Positions 18,363 to 59,929 of a stretch of 64,000 nucleotides of DNA are shown here, one piece after another. The translations under genes were made by a program, and so were the position numbers. Under the pieces are notes generated by a model. That model worked only from the letters and a program-made list of their open reading frames with translations, had not been told where the DNA came from and ran no database searches. Each line of letters opens with the position of its first letter. Position 1 is the stretch's first letter. Origin of the DNA: Actinacidiphila bryophytorum (GTDB lineage Bacteria; Actinomycetota; Actinomycetes; Streptomycetales; Streptomycetaceae); NCBI RefSeq assembly GCF_016916835.1, contig NZ_JAFFIX010000002.1, positions 248,001 to 312,000 of the forward strand. The letters are read 5' to 3'.

Positions 18363-19244
18363 GTGAACTCCGCCGCCACCGAAGCCCTGCGCGAACTCCT
18401 GGCCCGTGTACCGGAGATCGCCCCCCACGCCACGACGACCGTACTGCTCAACCCGCGCCCCGGTACCCCCGGCAGCCGGGACTCCCACCTGGGCGGCCCG
18501 CTGCTGTGGCCGGCCGCCGAACCCTGGCCGACCTGCGACAGGCACCCCGGCGAGGACCCGTACGACCTGGTGTCCGTCGCCCAACTGCACGCCGCAGAGG
18601 CGCCCGGGCTGCCCTTCCCCGAGGGCACCGACCTGCTCCAGGTCCTGTGGTGCCCGGTCCACCACGACCAGCCGCACCCGGCGGGCTGGGGTCCGGCCGG
18701 GCGCGTCGTGTGGCGGCGCACCGCCGACGTCACCGAGGAGGCGGCAGAACAGCCGGACGGCTGGGCGGAATGGCAGGACGACCCGGAGGGCGTCGTCCCC
18801 CGCCCCTGCGTCGTGCACCCCGAGCAGCTCCCCGACCTCCCGCCGGAGGACGCCCTGCCCGAGCCGCTGCGCAACCGACTCGCCGCGGCCGGTGCGGAGG
18901 ACCTCTACGACCTGATGTCCGCCCACCCCGGCTGCAAGGCGGGCGGCTGCATGGACTGGATGGCCGCCACCCGGCCCGCCGACCTGGACTGCCCCTCCTG
19001 CGGCTCCCCTTACGCCCTCCTGCTGCAGGTCGACAGCTACGAGTACCTGCCGTCCGACACCCGCGGCTACGGCCTGTCCGCCTTCGCCCCGCCCGAGGAG
19101 CAGGGCCTGGCACCCGGCACCGACGCCCACGACCGTGCGTCCCGCCCGACCGCCATGTCCGTCGGCCGCGGCGACTCCCACGGCGGCCTCTTCGTCTGCA
19201 CCGCCGCCCCGTCCGCCCACCCGCCGGCCTTCTTCCCGGGCTAG
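18363..19244 (+). CDS. DUF1963-like protein
   Basis: This 293-aa protein is rich in Trp, Pro and Cys. It resembles the DUF1963/YwqG family, whose role is unknown, through GGPLLWPAAEPWPTC and a C-terminal LLLQVDSYEYLPS. Paired cysteines (CKAGGCMDW, CPSCGSP) suggest a zinc site. It starts at GTG with GGGAG about 10 nt upstream. Its TAG stop lies inside the CTAG that borders the MITE at 19241-19421, so the mobile element begins exactly where the gene ends. Family assignment is moderate. Confidence 0.7.
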   Translation: MNSAATEALRELLARVPEIAPHATTTVLLNPRPGTPGSRDSHLGGPLLWPAAEPWPTCDRHPGEDPYDLVSVAQLHAAEAPGLPFPEGTDLLQVLWCPVHHDQPHPAGWGPAGRVVWRRTADVTEEAAEQPDGWAEWQDDPEGVVPRPCVVHPEQLPDLPPEDALPEPLRNRLAAAGAEDLYDLMSAHPGCKAGGCMDWMAATRPADLDCPSCGSPYALLLQVDSYEYLPSDTRGYGLSAFAPPEEQGLAPGTDAHDRASRPTAMSVGRGDSHGGLFVCTAAPSAHPPAFFPG

Positions 19245-19421
19245 GCCGTGTTTTGGAAGTAGCGCCGTCCGCCCACAGGGCGGGCCCCGCGGCGTCCGGT
19301 GCGTGCGATCGCAAGGCGGAGGGTCGTCCTCGTAGTGGGCCTACCCGGACGACTCCGACAACGCAGCGAGCGTGCGTGCCAGGCGTCGCGGGGCAGGCGG
19401 GACTTCCAAAACCCGGCCTAG
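19241..19421. mobile_element. 181-bp MITE-like element, copy 1
   Basis: Terminal inverted repeats GCCGTGTTTTGGAAGT (19245-19260) and ACTTCCAAAACCCGGC (19402-19417) match at 15 of 16 positions and are flanked on both sides by CTAG. The element codes for nothing obvious. An almost identical copy of equal length lies at 57518-57698. A 4-bp CTAG duplication fits IS5-group transposition (YTAR targets), so a transposase elsewhere in the genome probably moves it. Confidence 0.85.
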
Positions 19422-21567: not shown

Positions 21568-21642
21568 GGTCCTGTGGAGCAGTTTGGAGTGCTCGCCACC
21601 CTGTCAAGGTGGAGGCCGCGGGTTCAAATCCCGTCAGGACCG
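21568..21642 (+). tRNA. tRNA-Asp (GUC), copy 1
   Basis: A full cloverleaf is visible: acceptor GGTCCTG/CAGGACC, anticodon loop CTGTCAA with anticodon GTC, and T arm GCGGGTTCAAATCCCGT. CCA is not encoded. It lies just upstream of tRNA-Phe, and an identical copy sits at 25908. Confidence 0.97.
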
Positions 21643-21646
21643 CTGC

Positions 21647-25849: not shown

Positions 25850-25907
25850 GGTCGCGATCGAGTTCGACCGCACCCCCTGACCTGCTGTACAGTCTGTCTC
25901 GCAGCAA

Positions 25908-25982
25908 GGTCCTGTGGAGCAGTTTGGAGTGCTCGCCACCCTGTCAAGGTGGAGGCCGCGGGTTCAAATCCCGTCAGGACCG
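25908..25982 (+). tRNA. tRNA-Asp (GUC), copy 2
   Basis: Identical in its mature sequence to the copy at 21568, with anticodon GTC in loop CTGTCAA. TACAGT at 25888-25893, 14 nt upstream, is a likely -10 box. Its 3' end is repeated twice downstream in a tandem array. Confidence 0.97.
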
Positions 25983-26225
25983 CACAACATGAACGGCCCG
26001 CGCCCCCACCGGACGCGGGCCGCCGCCATGCCCCGCCACCCACCGAGGCCGCGCCCGCGGCGCCAGCCGCAAAAAGGCCACAGCAAATCCCGTCAGGACC
26101 GCACAACATGAACGGCCCGCGCCCCAGCGGACGCGGGCCGCCGCCATGCCCGGCCACCCACCGAAGCCGCGCCCGCGGCGCCAGCCGCAAAAAGGCCACA
26201 GCAAATCCCGTCAGGACCGCACAAC
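25965..26225 (+). repeat. Tandem array of tRNA-Asp 3'-end copies with spacer
   Basis: A 24-bp segment covering the last 18 nt of tRNA-Asp plus GCAC-type flank occurs at 25965-25988, 26084-26107 and 26202-26225. The two intervening spacers, 95 and 94 bp, are near identical to each other. Each spacer holds a GC hairpin (CGGCCCGCG with CGCGGGCCG). The period is 118-119 bp. The extra copies are only 3' ends and cannot be tRNAs. They look like stacked attachment-site remnants or a slippage duplication. Confidence 0.9.
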
Positions 26226-26254
26226 TTCAGCACGACCCCGCACCGCACCCTCAC

Positions 26255-45023: not shown

Positions 45024-45440
45024 ATGCCCGAGGTCGAGGTGTTGGTGGGACAGGTGGTGCCCGCGATCAGTGCGGCCGTCGGGGCGTACGGGGTCGGGGT
45101 GCTCAGCCGGGTGCAGGACGCGGCGGCGCAGGGCACGGTCGGGCTGGGGCGGCGGCTGCTGGCGCGGCTGCTGGGTGTGGCGGCGGAACCCGGGCGGTTG
45201 GAGGGCGCCGTCGAGGACCTCGCGGCGGCCGAGGAGGACGACCCGGACGCGGTGGCCGCACTGCGGTTGCAGGTCCGGCGGATCCTGCTGGAGCACCCGG
45301 AGCTGGCGGCCGAGCTGGCCGGGATGTTCCCCGCGGGGCCGCAGGCGCATGCGACCGGCACCCGGTCGGTGGCCGTCGCGGGCGACAACACGGGGCCGAT
45401 CACGACGGGCGACAACTCCCCGGTGAGGGACGGCGGTTGA
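45024..45440 (+). CDS. Small helical protein with C-terminal amyloid-like signalling motif (candidate effector)
   Basis: This 138-aa protein is alpha-helical over about residues 1-105, with a hydrophobic first helix (VEVLVGQVVPAISAAVGAYGVGVL). It ends in a short beta-prone tail, RSVAVAGDNTGPITTGDNSP (114-133). The next protein carries RSVTVGAANHAPVTTGDHSP at 41-60, identical at 12 of 20 positions. In bacterial amyloid-signalling pairs a helical effector and an adjacent NLR share such a motif, which nucleates the effector when the NLR oligomerises. GGAGGGGG precedes the ATG. Its stop overlaps the downstream TTG start (TTGA). Effector function is inferred, not shown. Confidence 0.75.
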   Translation: MPEVEVLVGQVVPAISAAVGAYGVGVLSRVQDAAAQGTVGLGRRLLARLLGVAAEPGRLEGAVEDLAAAEEDDPDAVAALRLQVRRILLEHPELAAELAGMFPAGPQAHATGTRSVAVAGDNTGPITTGDNSPVRDGG

Positions 45441-47800
45441 GCACCGAACCGCAGGCAGGCGGCCCCCCGGGCGCGGGCGCGCAGCCCGAAGCCGCACACA
45501 CCGCACCCCCGGGCGCCCGGCCCGGAGCCGTTCTCCCCCAACCCCCCGGCGGCGAGCGCTCCGTCACCGTCGGCGCCGCCAACCACGCCCCGGTCACCAC
45601 CGGCGACCACTCCCCGATCACCGCCGTGACGGTCGGCTCCCTCCCCCCGGTCGCGGACGTCCCGCCCGCCGCAGGCCCCGTCGGCCTCGACGCGCAGGCC
45701 CGCCAGTTCGTGGGCCGCACACGGGAGTTGGCCGTGCTGGAGCAGGCCCTGTCCGGCGGCAGGGGAGCCGTGGTCCAGGCCGTGCACGGCCTGGGCGGCA
45801 TCGGCAAGAGCGCTCTGGCGGCGCAGTACGTGGCCCTGCACGCCCGGGAGTTCACCCAGGTCGTGTGGCTCACCGCGGAGGACGGCGCCGGCGTCGAGGC
45901 GGGCCTGCGCCGGCTGGCGATCGCGCTGGAACCGCAGCTCGACCGCTTCCTGTCCTCCGAGGCGCTGGCGGAACGCGCGGTCGCCTGGCTGGCCGCGCAC
46001 GACGGCTGGCTGCTGGTCCTGGACAACGTCACCGCGATGCGCGACATCAGCGCCCTGCTGGAGCGGCTGGGCGGGGGCGGCGGACGCTTCCTGGCCACGA
46101 GCCGCCGCGCGGTCGGCTGGCAGCGGATCGGCGCGACGCCCGTACGCCTGGACGTCCTCGCGCCGGACGAGGCGCTGGCCCTGCTGGGCAGGACCGTCGG
46201 GGCGGCGGCGCAAACCCTCGACGGGGGCGACGAGTTGTGCGCGCAGCTCGGCCACCTCCCGCTGGCCATCGTGCAGGCCGGCGGCTACATCGCGCAGAAC
46301 GGCCTGACGGCACGGGCGTATCTGGCCCTGCTGGCCGAGCAGTCGGCGCACCTTTACGCGACCGGCGACGAGGACACCGACCCCGGCCGCACCATCGCCA
46401 GGACCTGGCGGCTGATCCTGGACCGGCTGGCCGCCGACGACCCGCTGCCGGGGCGGATCCTGCGGGTCCTGGCCTGGTTCGCCCCGGACGGCATCCCGGC
46501 CGGCCTGCTGAACGGCCTGGCCCCGCAGCCGGGCCTGGGCGAGGCGCTGGGGAAGCTGGCCGCGTACAACATGCTCACCCGCGGCGGCGACCCGGAAGAA
46601 CCGCTGCTCGCCGTCCACCGCCTGGTCCAGGCGGTCTCCCGCACCTCTGACCCGGCGGACCCGCACCGCACACCGGAGCTGGTCGACGAGGCCCGCGCCA
46701 GGGCGACCAGGCTGCTGATCGACGCCGCCCCCCGGCAGCCGGGCAGCCCGGCGACCTGGCCGGTGTGGCGCCGCCTGCTCCCGCACGTCCTCGCACTCGC
46801 CGACCACACCTCCCCGGAGACCGACACCCTCACGACCTGCCGGCTGCTGGGCCTCACCGGTGAATTCCTGCAGGACCAGGGGGACTTGCCGCGCGCGATC
46901 GACCAGCTGAGCCGCACCTACGACAGCGACCGGCGCCTGCAGGGCGCCGACAGCCCCAGCACGATGATCTCGCTGAACAACCTCGCGCTCGCCCACGAAG
47001 GCGCGGGCCATCTCCAGCGGGCGATCGAGCTGCACGAGCGGAACCTCGCCGACCGGCTGCGCATCCTCGGCCCCGACCACCCCAACACCCTGACCAGCCG
47101 CAACAATCTCGGCTACACCTACCGGGAGGCCGGGGACCTGGACCGGGCGCTCCCGCTGCTTGAGCAGAACCTCGAAGACCGGCTGCGCATCCTCGGCCCC
47201 GACCACGCCAACACCCTGGTCTCCCGCAACAACCTCGCCCTCGCCTACCGTTCTGCGGGCGACCTCGACCGCTCCATCGCACTGCACGAGCACAACCTGG
47301 CCGAGCGCGTACGCGTCCTCGGCCCCGACCACCCCAACACCCTGGGCTCGCGCACCAACCTCGCCGACGCGTACCACGCGAAGCGGGACCTCGACCGGGC
47401 GATCCCGCAGCACGAGCAGCTGGTCGCCGACTCCGAACGCGTCCTCGGCCCGGACCACCCCACCACCCTGATCGCCCGCAACAACCTCGCCACCGCCTAC
47501 CGTTCTGCGGGGCAGGTGGACCGGGCACTGGCCATGCACGAGCAGATCCTCGCGGCCCGGCTGCGCATCCTCGGCCCCGACCACCCCAACACCCTGAATT
47601 CGCGCAACAACCTCGCCAGCACCGTCAGGGCGACCGGGGACGTCGCACGGGCCGCCGCGCTGTTCGAACCCCTGCTCGCCGACGTGGAGCGAGCCCTCGG
47701 CGCGGACCACCCGCAGACCCGCACGGTCCGCGACAACCTCGACAGCGCCCGCCGGCGCCTCGCCGACCTCGCGCGACGGGCGCAGGACCCGCCCGCCTGA
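45437..47800 (+). CDS. NB-ARC/TPR NLR-like protein with N-terminal amyloid-like motif
   Basis: This 787-aa protein starts with a disordered Pro/Ala segment and the GD/N-rich motif at 41-60. The NB-ARC ATPase follows: Walker A GLGGIGKSAL (about 119-128), Walker B WLLVLDNV, sensor RFLATSRR and LGHLPLAIVQAGGYIAQ (GxP motif). A winged-helix region precedes about seven kinesin-light-chain-type TPRs of 42 aa (NLAxRLRILGPDHPNTLxSRNNLAxAYR). NLRs use the repeats to sense a trigger and the NB-ARC to oligomerise. The TTG start overlaps the stop of the small gene, so the two are made together. The repeats are very alike, which suggests recent expansion. Confidence 0.9.
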   Translation: MSTEPQAGGPPGAGAQPEAAHTAPPGARPGAVLPQPPGGERSVTVGAANHAPVTTGDHSPITAVTVGSLPPVADVPPAAGPVGLDAQARQFVGRTRELAVLEQALSGGRGAVVQAVHGLGGIGKSALAAQYVALHAREFTQVVWLTAEDGAGVEAGLRRLAIALEPQLDRFLSSEALAERAVAWLAAHDGWLLVLDNVTAMRDISALLERLGGGGGRFLATSRRAVGWQRIGATPVRLDVLAPDEALALLGRTVGAAAQTLDGGDELCAQLGHLPLAIVQAGGYIAQNGLTARAYLALLAEQSAHLYATGDEDTDPGRTIARTWRLILDRLAADDPLPGRILRVLAWFAPDGIPAGLLNGLAPQPGLGEALGKLAAYNMLTRGGDPEEPLLAVHRLVQAVSRTSDPADPHRTPELVDEARARATRLLIDAAPRQPGSPATWPVWRRLLPHVLALADHTSPETDTLTTCRLLGLTGEFLQDQGDLPRAIDQLSRTYDSDRRLQGADSPSTMISLNNLALAHEGAGHLQRAIELHERNLADRLRILGPDHPNTLTSRNNLGYTYREAGDLDRALPLLEQNLEDRLRILGPDHANTLVSRNNLALAYRSAGDLDRSIALHEHNLAERVRVLGPDHPNTLGSRTNLADAYHAKRDLDRAIPQHEQLVADSERVLGPDHPTTLIARNNLATAYRSAGQVDRALAMHEQILAARLRILGPDHPNTLNSRNNLASTVRATGDVARAAALFEPLLADVERALGADHPQTRTVRDNLDSARRRLADLARRAQDPPA
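46928..47740 (+). repeat. 126-bp coding repeats (TPR units)
   Basis: About six to seven in-frame 126-bp units encode the 42-residue TPRs of the NLR protein. The sequence CGGCTGCGCATCCTCGG, for example, recurs at 47054 and 47180. High nucleotide identity indicates recent duplication or ongoing homogenisation. Confidence 0.85.
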
Positions 47801-54304: not shown

Positions 54305-54387
54305 CCGATCGCCGACGCGAAAGCGCCACGGCCGATGACTCCGGTCATTGACATGTGGCGCATCGGGTAGAGTGGTCAGCACGACCT

Positions 54388-54460
54388 GCGGACGTGGCTC
54401 AGTTGGTAGAGCATCACCTTGCCAAGGTGAGGGTCGCGAGTTCGAATCTCGTCGTCCGCT
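54388..54460 (+). tRNA. tRNA-Gly (GCC), copy 1
   Basis: Acceptor GCGGACG/CGTCCGC, anticodon GCC in loop TTGCCAA, T arm CGCGAGTTCGAATCTCGTCG. CCA follows at 54461-54463. TAGAGT at 54368-54373 is a possible -10 box. Confidence 0.97.
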
Positions 54461-54470
54461 CCAGCAGGAA

Positions 54471-54502
54471 CGAAGGCCCCGGTCACATGACCGGGGCCTT
54501 CG
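54471..54502 (+). terminator. Terminator after tRNA-Gly copy 1
   Basis: CGAAGGCCCCGGTCA pairs with TGACCGGGGCCTTCG around a short loop, just after the tRNA. There is no T run, as is common in Streptomyces. Confidence 0.85.
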
Positions 54503-54591
54503 CCATGTGCCCGTCGTGTGTCGGGTCTCACACCCGGCGGAAAGCAGTTTCCGGTGCGCTGGGCCGATCGGGTACAGTATCTGCACGACCT

Positions 54592-54664
54592 GCGGACGTG
54601 GCTCAGTTGGTAGAGCATCACCTTGCCAAGGTGAGGGTCGCGAGTTCGAATCTCGTCGTCCGCT
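54592..54664 (+). tRNA. tRNA-Gly (GCC), copy 2
   Basis: Identical to copy 1, with CCA at 54665-54667. TACAGT at 54573-54578 is a likely -10 box. The flank just before the tRNA (CACGACCT) is shared with copy 1, pointing to a local tandem duplication. Confidence 0.97.
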
Positions 54665-54674
54665 CCAGGAAGAA

Positions 54675-54707
54675 CGAAGGCCCCGGTCACCCGACCGGGG
54701 CCTTCGC
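54675..54707 (+). terminator. Terminator after tRNA-Gly copy 2
   Basis: CGAAGGCCCCGGTC pairs with GACCGGGGCCTTCG around ACCC. It is a near copy of the hairpin after the first tRNA-Gly and may also end convergent purC transcripts. Confidence 0.87.
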
Positions 54708-54724
54708 CGTTCCTACCGTCCGGG

Positions 54725-55729: not shown

Positions 55730-57217
55730 TCAGCAGTGCTTGCAGATACGATCCAGCAGATTGGCGGTCGCACGCTGGATGCGCGCATCCACATGCCCGG
55801 GCCGGTCCAGCGCCGGCGACCAGGCGAAGGTCCCCGACGCGAAGACGTACGCACCGCTCGGCGCCCGGTAGAGCGACGTCTCCTGGTGGCAGCGGCGCCC
55901 GTCCGCCGCCTCGTACGGCGAGTGCGCCAGCAGGATGCGCTCGGTCGACTCCGGCAGCGGCGTCCGCGGGAAGTAACGGTCCGCCTCACCCGCCACCAGG
56001 CCCTCCACCGCGTCACCCTCCGCCGCGCCCGTCGCCTCCCACAGCCAGTGCCCCGCATTGCGCACCACCAGCGGCGACGGCTGCGGCACCCGGCCCGCGT
56101 ACTGAACCCCCAGCAGCAGCTGCTCCGGCTCCCCCAGCTCCCGCCACAGGCTGCCGCGGCCCTTGGTGTCCCCGCGCGGCTTGCGGCAGCTCAGCAGCCG
56201 GTCCGCGTCACCGGCAGGCGACGGCGCCAGCTCCACCTGCCAGTACATGGTGTTCGCCGACAGGAACACCAGCGAGGTGCCCGAGTCCCTGGCCGCCTCC
56301 GCCGCCCGGCGCATCGGCACCGACCAGTACTCGTCGTGCCCGGGGAAGACCATGCCCCGGTACAGCCCCGGATCCACCCGGCCCGCATGCAGGTCGCGGG
56401 CGTCCGCATAGGCCAGGTCGTAGCCGTACCGCTCGGCGAACCGCACGAAGTCGTAGGCGTGCCCGATGTGCAGCGGCAGGCCCGCACCCGCGTACGGCCG
56501 GTCGAAGGACACCGTCCCGGCCGCCTCCTCCTCACCCAGCAGCCGGCCCTCCTCGTCCCACGCGTGATACAGGCTCGCCCCCGTCCTGCCGTCCTCCGGG
56601 TACAGGTTGTACGCCTGCCACGTCACATCCGGCAGCAGCAGAAGCAGGTCGGCGCGGGCCGCCGGGTCCCGCACCGTGAACGGCACATGGCTGCGGTAGC
56701 CGTCCACCGTCGTCAGCACCGCCACATAGGCGCCGGTGCGCCAGTGCGGCGGGACCTGCAACCGCCAGGACTGCCACCAGTGGTGGCAGGAAATCGTCCT
56801 TCCCGCCGCCAGCGGGGCCGGCTGCACGATGCCCGACAGCCGCGGGCTCGCACTCACCTGCGCGGCGCCGTCACCCCCGTAGTGCCCGATCCGGTACACG
56901 TCGACGGTGAACTCCTGCGGCGGGTCCACGGTGATCCGGAAGTCCACGGCCTCGCCCGGGGCCACCGCCCCGGCCGACGCGAAGCCCTTGATCTGCCGCC
57001 GCACGTCGTCCGCCATCCGCGGCCCCGGCAGATGCGGGCGCCGCGGCGCCTCACCGCTGCTCGCGGCCAGGTCCACGTACCAGGGCACCGGCTGGCCGTC
57101 GTCCCCCGGGTAGTCCGACTCCCCCCGCAGCCACGGCAACGGCCCCTGCCCGAACGGATCCGACACCCCGTGCGCCAGCGCGCCCGACTCCCACCGCCTG
57201 ATGCGATCCGCGGCCAT
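55730..57217 (-). CDS. N,N-dimethylformamidase large-subunit-like protein
   Basis: This 495-aa protein resembles the beta subunit of N,N-dimethylformamidase. A beta-sandwich N-domain (YVDLAASSGEAPRRPHLPGPRMADDVRRQIKGFASAG, VDVYRIGHYGGDGAAQV) precedes a core with VTWQAYNLYPEDGRTGASLYH, MVFPGHDEYWS and LSANTMYWQVEL. Tyr and Glu residues at YNLYPEDG and HDEYW are good candidates for the iron ligands of that family. No small alpha subunit is coded nearby, so its substrate may differ. GAGGGG precedes ATG 57217. Two 25-bp direct repeats lie upstream. Confidence 0.85.
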   Translation of the reverse strand: MAADRIRRWESGALAHGVSDPFGQGPLPWLRGESDYPGDDGQPVPWYVDLAASSGEAPRRPHLPGPRMADDVRRQIKGFASAGAVAPGEAVDFRITVDPPQEFTVDVYRIGHYGGDGAAQVSASPRLSGIVQPAPLAAGRTISCHHWWQSWRLQVPPHWRTGAYVAVLTTVDGYRSHVPFTVRDPAARADLLLLLPDVTWQAYNLYPEDGRTGASLYHAWDEEGRLLGEEEAAGTVSFDRPYAGAGLPLHIGHAYDFVRFAERYGYDLAYADARDLHAGRVDPGLYRGMVFPGHDEYWSVPMRRAAEAARDSGTSLVFLSANTMYWQVELAPSPAGDADRLLSCRKPRGDTKGRGSLWRELGEPEQLLLGVQYAGRVPQPSPLVVRNAGHWLWEATGAAEGDAVEGLVAGEADRYFPRTPLPESTERILLAHSPYEAADGRRCHQETSLYRAPSGAYVFASGTFAWSPALDRPGHVDARIQRATANLLDRICKHC

Positions 57218-57383
57218 CACCCATCCCCTCCGTCCCCACCGCACCGCCCGCGACTGCCGCCGCAGGCGGCGGGGGCACTATTGCGGTACGCGCCCAGCAC
57301 ATCACAGTTCGCGGCCCCGCCGTCACGGTTCGTGGCGAAAATCTTCCCGCCCGAGCCACCCTTTCCGGCCACACGGAAGGGGG

Positions 57384-57452
57384 GTGCCACGTGCTGTGGC
57401 GCCGCCACGATCCGGGCGGGCCGGTGAGTGCCACGTGCTGTGGCGCCGCCAC
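57384..57452. repeat. Two 25-bp direct repeats upstream of the DMFase-like gene
   Basis: A 25-bp unit beginning GTGCCACGTGCTGTGGCGCC and ending GCCAC lies at 57384-57408 and 57428-57452 without mismatch, 44 bp apart. Each contains CACGTG and a GTGGCGCCGCCAC near-dyad. They are 167-235 nt upstream of the minus-strand gene start and may be regulator sites. Confidence 0.75.
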
Positions 57453-57517
57453 ATGCCGGTGCGCGGGGGCTTGTCGCAAGGGGCAGGGCCGGGGCGCCGG
57501 GGGGGCGCGGGGAGGGG

Positions 57518-57698
57518 CTAGGCCGTGTTTTGGAAGTAGCGCCGTCCGCCCACAGGGCGGGCCCCGCGGCGTCTGGTGCGTGCGATCGCAAGGCGCAGGG
57601 TCGTCCTCGTAGTGGGCCTACTCGGACGACTCCGACAACGCAGCGAGCGTGCGTGCCAGGCGTCGCGGGGCAGGCGGGACTTCCAAAACACGGCCTAG
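57518..57698. mobile_element. 181-bp MITE-like element, copy 2
   Basis: The terminal 16-bp inverted repeats GCCGTGTTTTGGAAGT and ACTTCCAAAACACGGC are perfect, flanked by CTAG on both sides. It differs from the copy at 19241-19421 at only a few positions. The right-hand CTAG contains the TAG stop codon of the minus-strand gene at 57695. Confidence 0.87.
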
Positions 57699-59323
57699 GC
57701 GAGGCGGACGGACTTTTCCGGGTGGACGCCCAGGGCGGAAAGCCATGCGCGGAGCGGCGCGGCGTCCCCGTTCTCGACGAGTCGAAGAACGGGAAAGCTG
57801 AGGTCACCCCGCCTGGTGCCGTCGACCACGAGGGCGGGGCCGTCGAGCCAGTCGAGCCCGGCCCCGGCGCCGGCCGTGTCGACGGCCGCACAGCACACCA
57901 TCGCGGTGACGTGGTCGGCGAGCAGTTCCCGCCCGGTGCGCGGCGGCAGCAACTGGTAGACGGGCGTGGCGGACGCCTCCACGGCCACGGCCGCCGTGGC
58001 CTCGTCCTGCGCGACGAGCGCCCCGATCCGCGCCGCCAACTCCTCGCTGCCACCGGCGGCGAGCCGGTCGATGACGCGGCCCAGCGTCGCGCGCCCGGCC
58101 TCGTCCCGCAGCAGCAGTCCGCGGTCGCGCGGCCCGCGGGCGGTCGCGGCTTCCGCGGCCCGGGCGCGGGCGCCAGGGCGTACTTCGTCCAGGACCTGCA
58201 CCAGCCGTGCGGCCTCCGCGCGCCAGATGCGGTCCACGACCTCCTCGGGGTAGCGCGCCCAGCTCACCGGCGCGAACTCGGGGCCGATGCGGCACGGGCC
58301 GCCGTGGAAGAGCCGGGCCGCGAGCAGGGACACCGCCTCGTCCACCACGCCCGGCTCTTCGAGCAGGTCGCAGGCGGGCCGTTCGCCGAGCCTGGTCTCG
58401 AAGCCGTCGGCGAGCCGGTCGCGCCGGGACAGTTCGGTGAGTGCGGCGACGACGCCGGCGTCCAGCCGGGACGGCCAGCGTCCCATCCGCCAGGCTGGCA
58501 GTGCGACCCGGGTCAGCAGCCGGTCCCACCCGGCGTAGGCGAGCCCGACCTGTTCCTGGGCGACGATCCGCAGGCCGTAGTCGACGGCCTGCGCCCGTTC
58601 GGACGCGGCTGCGGCCACCCCCCGCTCCATCTCCGCGACATGCGGACTGCACCCGCGCAGCAGCAGGCGGCCTGCCCAGCCGAGGAAGCCGTACGCGGGG
58701 CGCAGCAGCACGGAACGCCGCTGCCTGCCCTGGGCGGCGACGCCCACCGCGGCGTCCAGGCCGCGGACGAAGCGCCGGGCCGCGTATATCTCGGGGTCGG
58801 CCGCCGCACCTGTGCCCGCGACCACCGGGGCCAGCAGGGCACGCAGCTCGGCGACGCGCATCCACCACAGGAAGGGCGAGCCGATCACCAGCACGGGGGC
58901 GGGCCGGCGCTCCTGCTCGCCGGCCTCCGGCCTGCGGTCCTCCAGCCAGCTGTCGCAGTCGGGGGTCAGCTCTATCCCCGACGGGAGCGGGACCTGCAGC
59001 TTGTCGGCCAGGTCCTGCACCATGCGGTGCAGGTCGGGTGCGGCGCTCTCCGGGACGGGTACGGCGGGGCTCACGGCGGGGCGCGCCCGCGTGATGACCG
59101 CGGCCACCGCCGCGGCCACGGCGAGCAGGACGGCCGCGGCGGCCGTCACACCCCAGCGCACGCCGTCCCACGCGGGGCCGTCGATCCGGCCGGTCGACCC
59201 GGCCACGTGCAGGACCACCGCGGCGGCGGCCGGGAGCAGGGCCGCGCCGAGCGCGGCGCCGCGGACGCGCAGCACCGCCAGCGCGCGGGTCCGCGCCACT
59301 GCCTCGCCTGCTTCTCCAGCCAT
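57695..59323 (-). CDS. Membrane protein, probably a degenerate M48-like peptidase
   Basis: This 542-aa protein has two N-terminal membrane segments (about 20-40 and 55-80). The next part, VLVIGSPFLWWMRVAELRALLAPVVAG, matches the position and style of the M48 strand-helix that normally reads ELRAVLAHEhxH. Here HExxH is replaced by PVVAG, so catalytic zinc binding is lost. The remaining 350 residues (EMERGVAAAASERAQAVDYGL, RDRGLLLRDEAGRATLGRVI) are helical and unrecognised. ATG 59323 has AGGGGG upstream. The stop lies in the MITE border. Role may be regulatory; M48 relation is inferred. Confidence 0.65.
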   Translation of the reverse strand: MAGEAGEAVARTRALAVLRVRGAALGAALLPAAAAVVLHVAGSTGRIDGPAWDGVRWGVTAAAAVLLAVAAAVAAVITRARPAVSPAVPVPESAAPDLHRMVQDLADKLQVPLPSGIELTPDCDSWLEDRRPEAGEQERRPAPVLVIGSPFLWWMRVAELRALLAPVVAGTGAAADPEIYAARRFVRGLDAAVGVAAQGRQRRSVLLRPAYGFLGWAGRLLLRGCSPHVAEMERGVAAAASERAQAVDYGLRIVAQEQVGLAYAGWDRLLTRVALPAWRMGRWPSRLDAGVVAALTELSRRDRLADGFETRLGERPACDLLEEPGVVDEAVSLLAARLFHGGPCRIGPEFAPVSWARYPEEVVDRIWRAEAARLVQVLDEVRPGARARAAEAATARGPRDRGLLLRDEAGRATLGRVIDRLAAGGSEELAARIGALVAQDEATAAVAVEASATPVYQLLPPRTGRELLADHVTAMVCCAAVDTAGAGAGLDWLDGPALVVDGTRRGDLSFPVLRLVENGDAAPLRAWLSALGVHPEKSVRLA

Positions 59324-59537
59324 CGGGCGGCTCACCCCCTGCGCTGTGGCGACCGCCCCGGTGACGGCCTCCCCCCACTGTCGCACCGCCCACCGACATC
59401 GCAATGGCCGTACGGCTGTTTGCCGCAATGTCTCGCAGTGCGCCTCGGCGGCACCCTAGTTCGCCCCCCGCGAACCAGTCATCCATACGGCCGACCCATC
59501 ACTCCTTGGAGTGGCTTCCCCCCGAACATCCCCCTCC

Positions 59538-59900
59538 GGGCCGCCCCGGGACCTTCCGCCCGGTGATGGGCTGGGCGCGCAGTTCCCCGCGCCCCTGAAA
59601 AACGCTCACCCTCTTGCACAGAGGGCAACACCCAGGGGCGCGGGGAACTGCGCGCCCGATCACTCACCCACCGAAAGGTGCAAGCCCACCGCAAGCGGCA
59701 ATCACCCAGGAGGCGCTGGGGGTACCCCCAGGCGAAGCTCTGGGGGCGGAACTGCGCGACAAGCCCCCACGCAGCCGCAGGCAAGCAACGCACCGCAGGG
59801 GGCAGGACCTCAGGAGGCGCTGGGGGTGCCCCCAGGCGAAGCTCTGGGGGCGGAGCTGCGCGCGCAACCCACCGCCGGGCGGAAGGTCCCGGGGCGGCCC
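59538..59900. repeat. Nested extragenic inverted-repeat element
   Basis: The outer arms at 59538-59563 and 59875-59900 are perfect 26-bp inverted repeats (core CCGCCCCGGGACCTTCCGCC). An inner pair at 59575-59597 and 59633-59655 is a perfect 23-bp inverted repeat (core AGTTCCCCGCGCCCCTG). Two direct units of about 52 bp with CCCCCAG-N8-CTGGGGG hairpins lie at about 59710-59760 and 59813-59863. No frame here looks coding. Similar GC hairpin elements are scattered through Streptomyces genomes. Confidence 0.8.
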
Positions 59901-59929
59901 GGGAAGGCAGGGCGAGGGGGGCGCGGGGG

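Follow-up and report, generated by a model that had tools for sequence, protein, structure and literature searches.

Copies of a short non-coding transposable element in the genome of Actinacidiphila bryophytorum lie on stop codons far more often than other CTAG sequences of that genome do. Of 82 elements with both ends readable, 66 were located on a TAG stop, 15 were intergenic and 1 was in a gene, as compared with 27 stops, 85 intergenic positions and 12 positions in genes for 124 unoccupied CTAGs in a 1.004-Mb sample (66/82 vs 27/124 on stops, Fisher p = 3e-17). We consider it probable that this is a non-autonomous IS5-type element that inserted at CTAG and has been accumulating where a CTAG stop closes a transcription unit. 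Two copies are present in the window, the whole 64,000-nucleotide stretch analysed here, and the features needed below are as follows.

57518..57698, + strand (AGTAGCG end at left): MITE copy 2 in full, 181 bp including the CTAG at each end
57518..57521, unstranded: left CTAG of copy 2, putative target duplication copy
57695..57698, unstranded: right CTAG of copy 2, putative target duplication copy; TAG stop of the minus-strand gene
57521..57537, + strand: left terminal inverted repeat of copy 2, GGCCGTGTTTTGGAAGT
57679..57695, − strand: right terminal inverted repeat of copy 2, the same 17 bases as the left
57539..57678, + strand: core of copy 2, a long imperfect hairpin common to Streptomycetaceae, the ends being variable
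57546..57560, + strand: small side hairpin CCGCCC/GGGCGG within the core of copy 2
19241..19421, + strand: MITE copy 1, 181 bp, 4 differences from copy 2
57695..59428, − strand: conserved protein without an assigned function, longest ORF 577 aa, ending at the right CTAG of copy 2
18363..19244, + strand: gene stopped by the left CTAG of copy 1 (TAG 19242-19244), no Pfam match

The original prediction described copy 2 as having perfect ends, the same length as copy 1 and very few differences from it. This was confirmed: the outermost 20 bases of the element recurred inverted at the other end at 20/20 positions in copy 2 (19/20 in copy 1), the boundaries 57518-57698 were exact, and the two 181-bp copies differed at element positions 57, 79, 105 and 173. 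The right CTAG does supply the TAG stop of the minus-strand ORF, for which our home-made gene caller placed the start at 59299 (the longest ORF begins at 59428). The 'M48-like' label attached to that gene was not supported: Pfam at E ≤ 0.01 returned nothing for either gene stopped by the window copies, and NCBIfam gave the minus-strand protein beta-lactamase matches alone (11.9–14.5 bits against cut-offs of ≥570). The 80 relatives retained for this protein were titled Streptomyces, Actinacidiphila and, in one case, [Kitasatospora].

A DNA search of the genome listed at least 40 copies of the element, and 167 end sites with ≤2 mismatches were found, from which come the 82 elements with both ends readable and four additional ends cut at contig ends. 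Exactly 181 bp was the length of 67 of the 82, with 0–7 bases off the consensus, which supports the recent movement that had been proposed for the two window copies; eight were shorter than 120 bp. CTAG was present at both ends of 66/82 elements and CTGA at either end of none (0/82). Being short, devoid of transposase and bounded by terminal inverted repeats, and occurring in many near-identical copies, the element fits the description of a MITE. Five contig ends are inside or at an element (L040, L057, L067, L068 and L069); one of these, L057, is among the 82, with its right flank unseen, and was scored as off-stop. The element count in this draft assembly is probably too low. Across the 67 full-length copies, 25 combinations of six variable positions are seen, a pattern suggestive of sequence exchange among copies by gene conversion.

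Stop assignments were made with the home-made codon-score caller, for which 1.004 Mb of this genome served as the training set and which was run on the joined flanks (empty sites) of the elements and on the unoccupied CTAGs, each gene being scored against the CTAG copy on its own side. With the left CTAG copy only and a model trained on 204 kb, 58/82 elements were on stops. In three cases a single element stopped two convergent genes at once. More G/C adjoined CTAG at occupied sites, and the stop effect persisted given flanking A/T (log-odds 2.11, s.e. 0.42; 81 occupied, 124 unoccupied). The original prediction judged two copies of two at stops to be unlikely by chance; taken alone, two copies make a weak case (~5%, 27/124 squared), and it is the genome-wide 66/82 that makes it strong, so the association is not a two-copy fluke. 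Elsewhere in the genus, related elements were on stops in 37/54 cases, a count of occupied sites only, and mostly had other terminal repeats. This set consisted of the best matches (59 loci, 5 without clean ends left out), and two of its elements, both in G034, carry the ends found in our genome. Among six annotated plasmid copies, two were at stops, both with CTAG at each end (PLSDB-distributed annotation, whose gene table is incomplete).

The ends of the element point to its parentage. Streptomyces plasmids carry IS5-family transposases between ends such as GGCCGTGTTTTAGAAGT, identical to the MITE ends at 16/17 bases and adjoined by CTAG, so that ends shared with an autonomous IS5-type element were found on plasmids; the plasmid transposase scored 249.7 bits against NF033580 (IS5 family, cut-off 110). 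CTAG is also the commonest target duplication of E. coli IS5, at 15/24, in the excerpted text of PMC5493358. A parent IS with the MITE ends was not found in the element's own genome. The only near-full-length relative there, an IS5-family transposase (L098, G000:C10:95439-96310), has two overlapping frames and CTAG flanks, and its terminal repeats are unlike those of the MITE; the helper IS may have been lost, or may be absent from the 96-contig assembly. No match to the element was found in phages. From its anatomy, the element would be a non-autonomous IS5-family MITE that duplicates CTAG; the duplication is inferred, because a same-species empty site was not found. Twenty-four IS loci were examined (23 on plasmids, 1 in the own genome), and 2 of the 18 with readable ends were on stops. 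On plasmids, 2/17 IS and 2/6 MITEs were on stops (p = 0.27). Use of the IS-versus-MITE comparison as proof that the transposase ignores stops was dropped, since it is confounded by replicon.

As judged from this anatomy and the relatives, the DDE transposase of an IS5-family IS would recognise the 17-bp ends in trans, and insertion at CTAG would duplicate those 4 bp. Because CTAG is palindromic and would be left on both sides, a gene ending in ...C-TAG would retain its TAG from the CTAG copy on its own side and its protein would be unchanged; its mRNA would gain a hairpin after the stop if transcription runs on. With the own-side TAG retained, elements could build up on those CTAG stops that close transcription units. 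The presumed cause has two parts, a preference of insertion for CTAG within the GC-rich DNA of gene ends and the loss of insertions that fall inside genes, between close tandem genes or in upstream regions.

The genomic context of the occupied sites bears on how much each part contributes. A tandem gene less than 50 bp downstream was found at 0/68 occupied stops vs 6/27 unoccupied ones, a convergent setting at 42/68 vs 9/27, and positions within genes made up 1/82 of the elements vs 12/124 of the unoccupied CTAGs. At nearly all sites read, the sequence past the occupied stop was poorly conserved in relatives. The occupied stops are ends of transcription units, and the pattern is that expected from selection. 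All of this would follow if insertion occurred at any CTAG and selection then removed nearly everything except what sits on stops at transcription-unit ends, a purely survival-based account that nevertheless seems to us rather unlikely. Between convergent genes, occupied CTAGs (whole genome) were on stops in 42 cases and off stops in 3, whereas unoccupied CTAGs (1.0 Mb sampled) were on stops in 9 cases and off stops in 20. The odds ratio of 31 for off-stop avoidance relative to stops is left unexplained by survival, and neutrality alone is therefore insufficient. An age trend is also lacking among the copies: full-length copies without a private change (a base present in ≤2 copies) were already on stops in 27/36 cases, and the remaining ones in 27/31 (p = 0.24).

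The avoidance of these presumably equally harmless off-stop sites and the position of the copies without a private change favour a bias at insertion, in which the transposase, or a host process acting at gene ends (transcription or translation termination, or local DNA structure), targets stop CTAGs and selection plays a minor part. The recurrence of the association in other genomes, mostly with other terminal repeats, speaks for it as well. Against it stand the avoidance of close tandem genes, which points to selection, and the scarcity of IS5-family IS copies on stops, subject to the replicon confounding noted above and to the few plasmid MITEs on stops. We hold a dominant insertion bias to be quite possible, if short of probable. 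Considering the convergent off-stop avoidance together with the copies that lack a private change and are already on stops, we think that insertion preference and survival both act, and this combination is what we propose under the preferred reading of an IS5-type element accumulating on CTAG stops.

We asked what the stops had been before insertion. Orthologous gene ends were sought for 26 occupied sites in three relatives (G012, G009 and G031, of which G012 is the closest by match identity), and unoccupied CTAG stops and other TAG stops served as controls in the same three. Rows were obtained for 22/26 occupied sites and, even after 40 loci had been added, for 20/26 and 17/28 of the two control sets. 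A stop was present at the same place in 41/46 rows. In G012, TAG was found at 16/19 occupied stops vs 29/33 controls, no difference, and we therefore take it that the element usually duplicates a pre-existing stop. CTAG was read in 11, TAG in 16 and TGA in 3 of the 21 occupied-site rows of G012. In G009 and G031 taken together, TAG was at the stop in 5/24 occupied rows vs 42/56 controls. Restriction to unconserved flanks gave 5/23 vs 20/33 (p = 0.006), and further restriction to identity below 93% gave 4/18 vs 11/23 (p = 0.11). From these alignments, the stop appears usually to predate the insertion, though often by no great interval.

The TAG deficit in G009 and G031 could also be read as a sign that the element lands on TGA and replaces that stop with its own CTAG. 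TGA was present in 18/46 occupied-site rows, and at one locus with conserved flanks (L065) CTGA stood in place of CTAG in both relatives read; this locus and the TAG deficit tell against the preferred reading as well. Such TGA-to-TAG rewriting looked strong against the first controls (TAG in 52/55 rows), because these comprised the best-matching loci only, and it weakened once 40 more control loci were added; with the fuller controls, occupied and control stops of G012 are alike. Moreover, no element of this genome has CTGA at an end, although one related element elsewhere (L207) does. We regard rewriting of the stop as very improbable. For the gene stopped by copy 2, empty sites lacking CTAG in relatives, which the original prediction had named as evidence against itself, gave a mixed picture: the stop is TGA in G012, a CTAG precedes CCCCT in G031 just as in the window, and CTAG was found in 2/80 loci of other species. 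Orthologues of site 1 had no match among loci L135-L163.

The inner part of the element had been suggested as a possible RNA fold acting as a 3'-end hairpin for the host genes. The fold was borne out by a folding check, with −134.8 kcal/mol (z −11.9) for the plus strand and −117.5 kcal/mol (z −10.0) for the minus strand, and 0/200 shuffles as good in either case. Strand-specific selection on the RNA did not emerge clearly: among the pairs common to both strands' folds, G-U was seen in 13 and A-C in 6, and 13 further pairs are specific to the plus strand. When 23 elements, drawn from many genomes, were aligned, the hairpin was paired in 97.8% of cells, a value favoured by the derivation of the structure from the same alignment. 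Changes on both sides were seen in 32/70 pairs and 18/50 inner pairs, as against at most 7 and 4 in slid controls. Mean identity was 66% in the ends and 82% in the core; as far as the alignment goes, one core is surrounded by differing terminal repeats. A related element was matched in 33/35 genomes of the genus and the core in 154/197 genomes of the order (both at E ≤ 0.001 and with the own genome counted, the weakest matches perhaps being due to chance). A second small palindrome, of the GGGGGCACCCCC...TGGGGGA type, is nested in relatives, inside the core of L222 and near the right end of L216.

The two-sided changes suggest that the folded form is under selection, although transposition itself could require pairing. 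No intrinsic (Rho-independent) terminator with a G+C stem and a T run was detected at 57201-58000, and the orientation of the element relative to the gene showed no bias (39/69, p = 0.34). Rfam at 57400-57800, searched up to E = 1, gave mir-1397 as its sole match (18.7 bits vs 70 needed). Positive selection for a hairpin that terminates or shields the transcript would suit the very stable fold on both strands, the two-sided changes and the location at transcription-unit ends; given the missing U-tract, the indifferent orientation and a conserved pairing that could equally serve transposition, we find it doubtful. Comparable doubt attaches to a broader picture, a mobile structured-RNA module whose core would be selected as a nucleic-acid structure, would move in Streptomycetaceae by borrowing terminal repeats from the IS5 transposon active at the time, and would be placed or retained on stops as a portable 3' end.

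Other repeats were seen in the window. A tRNA-Asp gene (25908-25983) has its 3' end repeated three times, in steps of 118–119 bp, within 25902-26243, and these repeats resemble attachment sites left behind by integrated elements; a second tRNA-Asp gene, identical to the first, is at 21568-21643. Tandem units of 126 bp (42 codons each), about 70% alike, occupy 46933-47688 within ORF 45437-47800. At 54376-54708 a 129-bp unit is duplicated, with two tRNA-Gly(gcc) genes, 96% identical, and direct and inverted repeats, with CCCCCAG/CTGGGGG hairpins among them, are clustered at 59536-59902.

If the preferred reading of accumulation on CTAG stops is true, the element offers a clear example, in countable form, of a bacterial transposon that settles where insertion does almost no harm, at the palindromic CTAG of stop codons. 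Should an insertion bias be real, gene ends must bear some mark that the transposase follows; should there be a benefit, dozens of genes get their 3' ends from elements. The core matches in genomes of the order mean that the matter bears on gene 3' ends in an antibiotic-rich group. Among the titles and abstract openings listed, which cover few subscription journals, we found no account of this element family or of stop-codon MITEs, and the excerpted main text of a MITE review (PMC10969869) contains neither 'Streptomyces' nor 'stop codon'.

With IS5-family MITEs the present element shares its shortness, non-coding sequence, terminal inverted repeats, many copies, IS5-like ends and CTAG flanks. 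It differs from them in having four in five copies on stops and a structured core that is kept in Streptomycetaceae while the terminal repeats vary. IS5-family IS (NF033580; Pfam DUF4096 and DDE_Tnp_1) share the 17-bp ends, at 16/17 bases in the plasmid examples, and the adjoining CTAG; unlike them, the MITE has no transposase, and those IS copies that were read are on stops in 2/18 cases only. Extragenic palindromes of the REP, RUP, BOX and SPRITE type (see also PMC10969869) are likewise multi-copy hairpins between or after genes; what sets the present element apart from them is its exact CTAG junction on a stop codon.
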